Shown here piece by piece: positions 937 to 4,353 of a stretch of DNA of 64,000 bases. The notes under the pieces were generated by a model that worked only from the letters and a program-made list of their open reading frames with translations, was not told the DNA's origin and searched no databases. The stretch is from an uncultured Chitinophagaceae bacterium (GTDB taxonomy: Bacteria > Bacteroidota > Bacteroidia > Chitinophagales > Chitinophagaceae), in the NCBI GenBank assembly GCA_903904335.1, contig CAIVCF010000219.1, forward strand, positions 1 through 64,000. The letters run 5' to 3'. The position numbers were made by a program, and so were the translations under genes. Within the stretch, counting starts at the first letter, position 1, and each line of letters opens with the position of its first letter.

Positions 937-967
937 TTGGTCTGCATTCAATCAATCCTTACTTTTG
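937..967 (+). promoter_or_regulatory. promoter of the Phe/Tyr leader and pheA operon
   Basis: TTG at 937-939 and TACTTTTG at 960-967 fit the Bacteroidota -33/-7 consensus (TTTG / TANNTTTG) with 20 bases between them. The leader-peptide ATG at 975 is only 7 bases past the -7 box, so the transcript may begin at or just before the start codon. Confidence 0.6.
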
Positions 968-974
968 AAAAGTA

Positions 975-1064
975 ATGAAACAGAACATCGCAAATACATT
1001 CTTTTACTTTTATTTTTATTTCTACTTTAAAAATAGTAGCCGGGTTGTATTTGCAAAAGCATAA
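975..1064 (+). CDS. Phe/Tyr leader peptide controlling the pheA operon
   Basis: This is a 29-codon frame, ATG 975 to TAA 1062-1064. Residues 9-18 are ten aromatic codons in a row, FFYFYFYFYF (six Phe, four Tyr), followed by KNSSRVVFAKA. The first enzyme downstream is prephenate dehydratase, the committed step to phenylalanine, and a terminator hairpin lies between the two. That is the classical arrangement of a ribosome-mediated attenuator. The peptide probably has no function beyond being translated: ribosomes stall on the run when charged tRNA-Phe or tRNA-Tyr is scarce. The aromatic run, the matching pathway and the mutually exclusive hairpins are visible in the sequence. Regulation itself is inferred. 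Confidence 0.85.
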   Translation: MKQNIANTFFYFYFYFYFKNSSRVVFAKA

Positions 1065-1095
1065 GAGATTAACTAAATCAACATACAGTCCCGGC
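1039..1095 (+). promoter_or_regulatory. antiterminator of the Phe/Tyr attenuator
   Basis: GCCGGG at 1039-1044 is complementary to CCCGGC at 1090-1095, and TGTA (1046-1049) can add pairs with TACA (1084-1087). The 5' strand sits just after the aromatic codons and about 18 bases before the leader stop. A ribosome stalled at the Phe/Tyr run leaves it free, while one at the stop codon covers it. The 3' strand is shared with the terminator, so the two structures exclude each other. Confidence 0.75.
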
Positions 1096-1113
1096 AAAAA
1101 GCCGGGATTTTTT
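1090..1113 (+). terminator. attenuator terminator before pheA
   Basis: CCCGGC (1090-1095), AAAAA loop, GCCGGG (1101-1106), then a T-run at 1108-1113. The ATG of pheA follows at 1119. Formation in the leader mRNA should end transcription when Phe and Tyr are plentiful. Confidence 0.85.
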
Positions 1114-1118
1114 ATTTT

Positions 1119-1958
1119 ATGGCAACAACAAAAGTATCTATTCAGGGTTATGAAGGCAGTTTCCATCAGGTTGCTGCAGAGCAATTTTTCGGGAAAGACG
1201 TAACCGTAATCCCTTGTGCAACTTTTAAAGAAGTAATTAAAATCGCTTCCAATAAAAAAGAAAGCAATGGCGGGGTGATGGCCATCGAAAATTCTATTGC
1301 AGGAAGTATTTTACCGAATTATACTTTATTGCAGAAAAGCAGTTTGAGAATTGTGGGCGAAGTATATCTGCCCATCAAACAACATTTGTTGGTGAATCCC
1401 GGCGTAAAGTTGGAAGACATTAAAGAAGTGCATTCGCATCACATGGCCATACAACAATGCATGGAATACTTAGATAAGTATGAGTGGAAGTTGGTGGAAA
1501 CAGATGATACAGCTTTAAGTGCCAAACATATCCATCAGCATAAAAGCAAACATATTGCAGGCATTGCCAGTAAGTTGGCTGCAGAATTGTTTCAATTGAA
1601 TATCATTGTTCCGAATATTCATACACAAAAAAATAATTACACCCGCTTTTTGATCTTGCAAAGATTAGATGAAGCTGTACAGGTAAATGATGCCAACAAA
1701 GCATCCGTCAATTTTGAGACCGATCATTCAAAAGGCAGTCTGGCAAAGGTTTTAACTAAGATAGCGGATGGTGGAATTAATTTAAGCAAGCTGCAAAGTT
1801 TTCCTATTGCCGGTACCAATTTCAAATACAGTTTTCATGCCGATATGGAATTTGAGCATACGGATATATTCAATGCGGTGATAGAAGAGATCAAACCTTT
1901 AACGGCGCAAATAAAGATTTACGGAGTGTATAAAAACGGAAACCCGCTAACCCCCTAA
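1119..1958 (+). CDS. pheA: prephenate dehydratase
   Basis: Converts prephenate to phenylpyruvate, the committed step of phenylalanine synthesis, in the cytoplasm. The 279-residue length fits the monofunctional enzyme. The catalytic domain spans about residues 1-185, with the family motifs GYEGSFHQVAAEQFF (10-24), ENSIAGS (57-63) and the active-site TRF at 175-177. A C-terminal ACT domain follows at about 195-275. In family members the ACT domain usually carries GAL and ESRP motifs that bind Phe; here they read GSL and QSFP, so allosteric control may be altered. The last residues (NPLTP) are encoded by a copy of the CCCC/GGGG repeat. It is the first enzyme gene after the Phe/Tyr leader and attenuator, followed by the aminotransferase. 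Confidence 0.93.
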   Translation: MATTKVSIQGYEGSFHQVAAEQFFGKDVTVIPCATFKEVIKIASNKKESNGGVMAIENSIAGSILPNYTLLQKSSLRIVGEVYLPIKQHLLVNPGVKLEDIKEVHSHHMAIQQCMEYLDKYEWKLVETDDTALSAKHIHQHKSKHIAGIASKLAAELFQLNIIVPNIHTQKNNYTRFLILQRLDEAVQVNDANKASVNFETDHSKGSLAKVLTKIADGGINLSKLQSFPIAGTNFKYSFHADMEFEHTDIFNAVIEEIKPLTAQIKIYGVYKNGNPLTP

Positions 1959-4345: not shown

Positions 4346-4353
4346 TACCTTTG
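4346..4353 (+). promoter_or_regulatory. -7 box for the DEAD-box helicase
   Basis: TACCTTTG matches TANNTTTG and lies 21 bases before ATG 4375, suggesting the helicase has its own promoter within the aromatic gene group. Confidence 0.55.

Follow-up and report, generated by a model that had tools for sequence, protein, structure and literature searches.

The closest described counterpart of the element reported here is the enterobacterial pheA leader (pheL, Rfam family RF01859), in which a peptide rich in cognate codons is combined with 1:2, 2:3 and 3:4 helices and a terminator before pheA. The run in E. coli pheL consists of Phe codons only. Trp and His leader attenuators (RF00513, RF00514) belong to the same mechanism class and serve other amino acids and operons, and candidates in Bacteroidetes/Chlorobi were reportedly mentioned by Vitreschak et al. 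in 2004 (FEMS Microbiol Lett). According to a study from 2010, such attenuators were known only from Proteobacteria and Actinobacteria, to which the study itself added Firmicutes (PMC2965389), and a paper from 2013 named gamma-proteobacteria as a possible origin of these motifs (PMC3766115). The nearest case within the same phylum comes from the F. psychrophilum transcriptome (2021), the main text of which describes structured 5′ elements, not in Rfam, before pheA and hisG in Flavobacteriaceae and strong indications of attenuation by leader peptides before amino-acid operons of F. psychrophilum (PMC9723704). Phylum, gene and proposed mechanism are thus shared with the leader analyzed here; its sequence, its helices and its spread beyond Flavobacteriaceae, all given below, do not appear in that main text. 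The original prediction for this locus had inferred, from no described case being known to it, that a Phe/Tyr attenuator in Chitinophagaceae would be new, and because a pheA element and clues for attenuation had already been reported in that text, its novelty is smaller than hoped.

We analyzed a 64,000-nt stretch of DNA (the window) from an uncultured Chitinophagaceae bacterium; the coordinates of the leader and of the operon given below refer to its + strand. The pheA gene, encoding prephenate dehydratase (PF00800, E = 1.7e-56), occupies positions 1119–1958 and is followed by genes for a class I/II aminotransferase (PF00155, 2003–3229) and prephenate dehydrogenase (tyrA; PF02153, PF20463; 3284–4168), beyond which lie genes for a DEAD-box helicase, a DAHP synthase-chorismate mutase fusion and 3-dehydroquinate synthase (aroB). 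Directly ahead of pheA, the first gene, we found a short ORF of 29 codons (975–1064, MKQNIANTFFYFYFYFYFKNSSRVVFAKA) carrying codons for the product amino acids and no Shine-Dalgarno sequence. As originally predicted, its translation contains ten consecutive Phe/Tyr residues (FFYFYFYFYF), encoded at 999–1028. A (TWY)8 pattern search on both strands of the 3.1-Mb genome returned runs of at least eight aromatic codons at one place only, that of the leader run; all genome-wide statements made here derive from such pattern searches and from family searches. The mixture of Phe and Tyr codons had been proposed to fit the pheA-aminotransferase-tyrA group, and the identities of the downstream genes agree with this. 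Both residues are present in 109 of 109 leader runs collected (556 Phe and 379 Tyr codons in total), which supports joint sensing of Phe and Tyr. Very probably, to judge from its sequence, the element regulates the pheA-aminotransferase-tyrA transcript by ribosome-mediated transcription attenuation, with the charging of tRNA-Phe and tRNA-Tyr as the sensed signal. Farther upstream, the segment 577–622 resembles the 5′ half of a tRNA gene (GTCCCGTAGTTCAATGGATAGAATAGAAGTTTCCTAAAC...) and may be a truncated copy of one; ARAGORN reports no tRNA genes in the window.

An intrinsic terminator lies between the leader ORF and pheA, and its identification in the original prediction proved correct. The stem is made of 9 pairs (1087–1095/1101–1109) and is followed by a U tract (1108–1118) that adjoins the pheA ATG at 1119, so that region 4 comprises the 3′ arm 1101–1109 and the U tract to 1118 (1101–1118). 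Region 2 (1039–1053) pairs with region 3 (1079–1095), of which the part 1087–1095 is at the same time the 5′ arm of the terminator, and the resulting antiterminator, with an energy of about -18 to -20 kcal/mol, excludes the terminator. The pairing of the region 2 core GCCGGG (1039–1044) with CCCGGC (1090–1095), on which the original prediction relied, is present and forms part of this longer helix. When region 2 was subjected to dinucleotide shuffling, only 1 of 2000 shuffles gave an equally strong 2:3 pairing in the window, and the whole 145-nt leader was more stable than 200/200 shuffles (z = -4.96). Folding, together with shuffle and partner-swap tests, revealed also a third helix that had been missed: region 1 (GCAAATACA, 990–998), located near the control codons, forms 9 bp with 1046–1054 in the 3′ half of region 2, which gives the full 1:2 / 2:3 / 3:4 anatomy. 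Taken alone, helix 1:2 is modest in the window, where it is weaker than the other helices and 68 of 2000 shuffles were as good.

Among the families matched in the interval 900–1200, Phe_leader (RF01859) ranked first by bit score, with the whole model covered (E = 0.023), and its 25.8 bits lie far below the gathering score of 55. The leader thus works, as far as its sequence can tell, like the RF01859 family and is not a member of it by Rfam's rule. With pheL it shares the cognate-rich peptide, the three helices and the terminator before pheA, and it differs in that it is found in another phylum, mixes Phe with Tyr, lacks a Shine-Dalgarno sequence and has a predicted 5′ UTR of 2–3 nt. Matches to other Rfam families in E-value mode, apart from those to two leader families, look like chance. 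At the gathering score no Rfam family, T-box or other cis-regulatory RNA included, was matched in the window or in the pheA loci of 18 relatives. This result bears on the explanation that the terminator is under non-ribosome control, by a tRNA- or metabolite-binding RNA or by an RNA-binding protein, and that the short ORF is incidental. Such control would be compatible with a terminator and antiterminator considered by themselves, as these occur also in riboswitch or T-box style switches. We regard it as very unlikely, given that no known family is recognized, that the conserved structure other than the terminator pairs within the ORF, and that the ATG-run-stop frame, the Phe/Tyr content and the spacing from the run to region 2 are kept across very different sequences.

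To follow the helices of the proposed attenuator in relatives, we used a family alignment of 76 members built from sequence only. Double-sided changes numbered 15 in helix 2:3 (shuffle maximum 10) and 36 in helix 3:4 (shuffle maximum 18). Shared ancestry inflates such counts, so that shuffle-based confidence is overstated, and more weight belongs to the compensatory pairs that can be seen and to the diversity of the sequences than to the p-values. In the outer part of 2:3, GTTG/CAAC and GTTA/TAAC covary (Fisher p = 4.8e-4). For 67 dissimilar representatives, the mean energy of the own 2:3 pairing was -19.0 kcal/mol vs. -14.0 kcal/mol with species-swapped partners (p = 5e-12), and that of the own 1:2 pairing was -11.7 vs. 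-9.0 kcal/mol (p = 1e-8). The exclusive antiterminator, which overlaps the 5′ arm of the terminator, is therefore under selection, and both exclusive pairings are retained in genomes of Alistipes, of Hymenobacter and of the Flavobacteriaceae-like group despite quite different sequences.

Within the same family (Chitinophagaceae), every one of the 28 genomes with usable upstream DNA has the leader before pheA. Loci from named records (Hydrotalea, Niastella, Filimonas, Lacibacter, Flavihumibacter, Terrimonas, Sediminibacterium, Chitinophaga, Hymenobacter, Alistipes and others; 80 in total) carried it in 78 of the 79 with usable upstream DNA, L082 being the sole exception. In other families of the class Bacteroidia it was present at 33/45 loci, complete in families f19, f20, f23, f25, f29 and f31, partial in f28 and absent in f24, f30, f2 and f3; a Flavo-1 RNA at one of the f25 loci marks this family as Flavobacteriaceae-like. 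Leader and terminator together precede pheA in genomes of Chitinophagaceae, Hymenobacter, Alistipes and the Flavobacteriaceae-like group. Alignment of the region upstream of pheA, proposed along with the original prediction, showed a leader that is kept with compensatory changes and lacking in a few relatives. Among the loci sampled from other classes of the phylum, 5/34 have the leader (L120, L123, L180, L197, L198). The PheA proteins encoded at four of these are close to the Bacteroidia type, which suggests possible horizontal transfer of pheA together with its switch. The pheA of L180 is of a fused, distant type, yet is preceded by an aromatic leader, and L196 has a Bacteroidia-close pheA but no leader. 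Sampling was weighted towards close relatives rather than random, and the fractions given here are to be read in this light.

The same data speak to the possibility that the aromatic run is AT-rich low complexity and the hairpins arose by chance or form a constitutive terminator of an upstream gene. The run is indeed T-rich, and 8-codon aromatic runs occur elsewhere in some relatives (for example L232 and L233). Yet of eight such runs sampled from other genomes of the family by the unbiased pattern search, six immediately precede pheA and are accompanied by a terminator, and this, along with the uniqueness of the run in its own genome, the class-wide conservation with compensatory changes and the conserved frame, leaves this explanation with hardly any credibility. 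The parts of the sequence, their gene context, conservation, covariation and fixed spacing are established by the analysis.

Spacing is of particular interest with respect to the ribosome. Region 2 starts 7–12 nt past the run in 101/109 leaders, and ribosome footprints put the front of a stalled ribosome at about this distance, so that the arrangement fits the leading edge of a ribosome stalled on the run. We performed constrained folding in which the RNA was masked by a ribosome at defined positions, and both exclusive states could be obtained. With RNA up to 1095, a ribosome placed anywhere on the run resulted in the antiterminator, and with a ribosome at the stop codon only the 6-bp core of 2:3 was left; for the full leader the terminator won in nearly all cases. 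RNA to 1095 without any ribosome mask had the antiterminator as its minimum-energy fold, so the off state needs kinetics or prior formation of 1:2. The original prediction that a ribosome stalled on the run leaves 1039–1049 free is consistent with these folds. Its second part, that a ribosome at the stop masks this segment, holds only partly in this genome: by the standard footprint such a ribosome covers about 1047–1074, that is, the 3′ half of region 2 but not 1039–1044. In many relatives the stop codon is inside region 2 and masking is complete.

From these features we infer translation of the leader, the site of transcription start, premature termination and the response to Phe and Tyr, as follows. 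RNA polymerase would start a few bases upstream of the leader ATG, trailed by a ribosome that enters the leader peptide. When Phe or Tyr is short, the ribosome would stall within 999–1028; a stall at early codons would cover region 1, and a stall anywhere on the run would free region 2. Free region 2 could then pair with region 3 while the latter is being transcribed, no terminator would form and pheA would be transcribed. When both Phe and Tyr are plentiful, the ribosome would pass through region 2 to the stop codon and leave. Region 2 would then be masked, or held by region 1, as helix 1:2 could form after ribosome departure, and with region 2 unavailable the 3:4 terminator would fold and end transcription in the U tract just before pheA.

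As the U tract adjoins the pheA ATG in the window, the leader might instead act mainly on pheA translation, either by helix 3:4 blocking initiation in read-through RNA or by re-initiation of the leader ribosome. In relatives, the distance between terminator and pheA varies from a few to >100 nt and the U tract is nevertheless retained, which favours termination; a mainly translational role is accordingly very unlikely. That a Phe/Tyr transcription attenuator of the classical kind, with an ordinary mechanism, really exists here is a well-supported prediction. What sets it apart, on the same basis, is its mixed specificity, its wide and hardly described distribution and its predicted near-leaderless start.

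The last of these points comes from a promoter element missed by the original prediction. A box search identified TACTTTTG at 960–967, which matches the Bacteroidota sigma-A -7 element TAnnTTTG, and a -33-like TTG is located 20 nt upstream of it (937–939), at a position common among leaders with a box: TTG was found 17–23 nt (mostly 18–20) upstream of the -7 box in 56/75 box-bearing leaders. Of 108 leaders, 75 had TAnnTTTG in the 30 nt that precede their ATG, with 3.1 expected from shuffles and 2 observed in a control window, and in 67 of the 108 it was 4–10 nt ahead of the ATG (mode 7). In the window, TACTTTTG is the sole + strand -7 box between positions 1 and 4300, and only 2/52 long ORFs have a box equally close to their start. 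In F. johnsoniae the distance between box and transcription start is 4–5 nt (PMC6847099), and with this spacing leader mRNAs would begin 0–6 nt before the ATG; in the window the predicted start falls at 972–973, which would leave a 5′ UTR of about 2–3 nt and a near-leaderless transcript. Only a minority of 5′ UTRs in the phylum are short (PMC7366714, PMC9723704, PMC6847099), those of up to ~10 nt making up about 4–13% of mapped Bacteroidota mRNAs (PMC7366714, PMC6847099). A second -7 box (TACCTTTG, 4346–4353) precedes the gene for the DEAD-box helicase, and tyrA may therefore be the last gene of the attenuated operon. Directly upstream of the leader promoter, at 878–927, there is a long AT-rich palindrome (TTGATGTTTTCTAAAACTAA-AGAGCG-TTAGTTTTAGAAAACATCAA), with a U run found on neither strand. 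Its core, ACTAANGNNCGTTAGT, occurs once in each of three genomes of the genus, always ahead of pheA, and in L007 the arms are different with the inverted repeat retained; the palindrome is possibly an operator.

Leaders of similar design were detected at other amino-acid operons. In the same genome, a His leader (MKQTTHIHHHHLPIG, HIHHHH; L146 on G000:C123) with a terminator is located upstream of hisG, and similar His leaders were found in 12 other genomes, with the same box arrangement and a slightly longer gap. A Trp leader (MKQNLLNNNWWWHTNSDRGM, WWW; L162, also on G000:C123) with a terminator precedes trpE and has similar counterparts in relatives; neither L146 nor L162 matched Rfam at the gathering score. 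Ile/Val-rich leaders with terminators upstream of ilvD (L226 and L227; MSLNKFNKPTIINAIIIVVIVIIVPALHGGEIFM and MNNKQLSVILSIIISVVNIY), of the type seen before this gene in G002 and G037, are probably branched-chain attenuators. A search for such a leader before ilvD in the own genome found none, as the operon with ilvD begins with another gene there.

We lean towards the view, based on these leaders, that Bacteroidota have their own widespread ribosome-mediated attenuators (Phe/Tyr, His, Trp and probably branched-chain), which are near-leaderless, with the ATG ~0–6 nt from the transcription start, and lack a Shine-Dalgarno sequence. Rfam does not contain the Phe/Tyr element, and the leader peptides are probably missing from the annotation of many genomes. 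With the ATG so near to the transcription start, the ribosome that acts as sensor would have to bind right at the 5′ end of the RNA as it emerges; a near-leaderless start such as the one predicted here is unusual and offers a clear test of ribosome loading. Classical attenuation requires a ribosome closely behind RNA polymerase. If true, the proposed mechanism would imply close transcription-translation coupling at these operons in Bacteroidota, a phylum that lacks Shine-Dalgarno sequences and in which coupling is hardly studied in the literature we found. The retention of such a switch across much of Bacteroidia would constitute indirect evidence for transcription-translation coupling in a major phylum.
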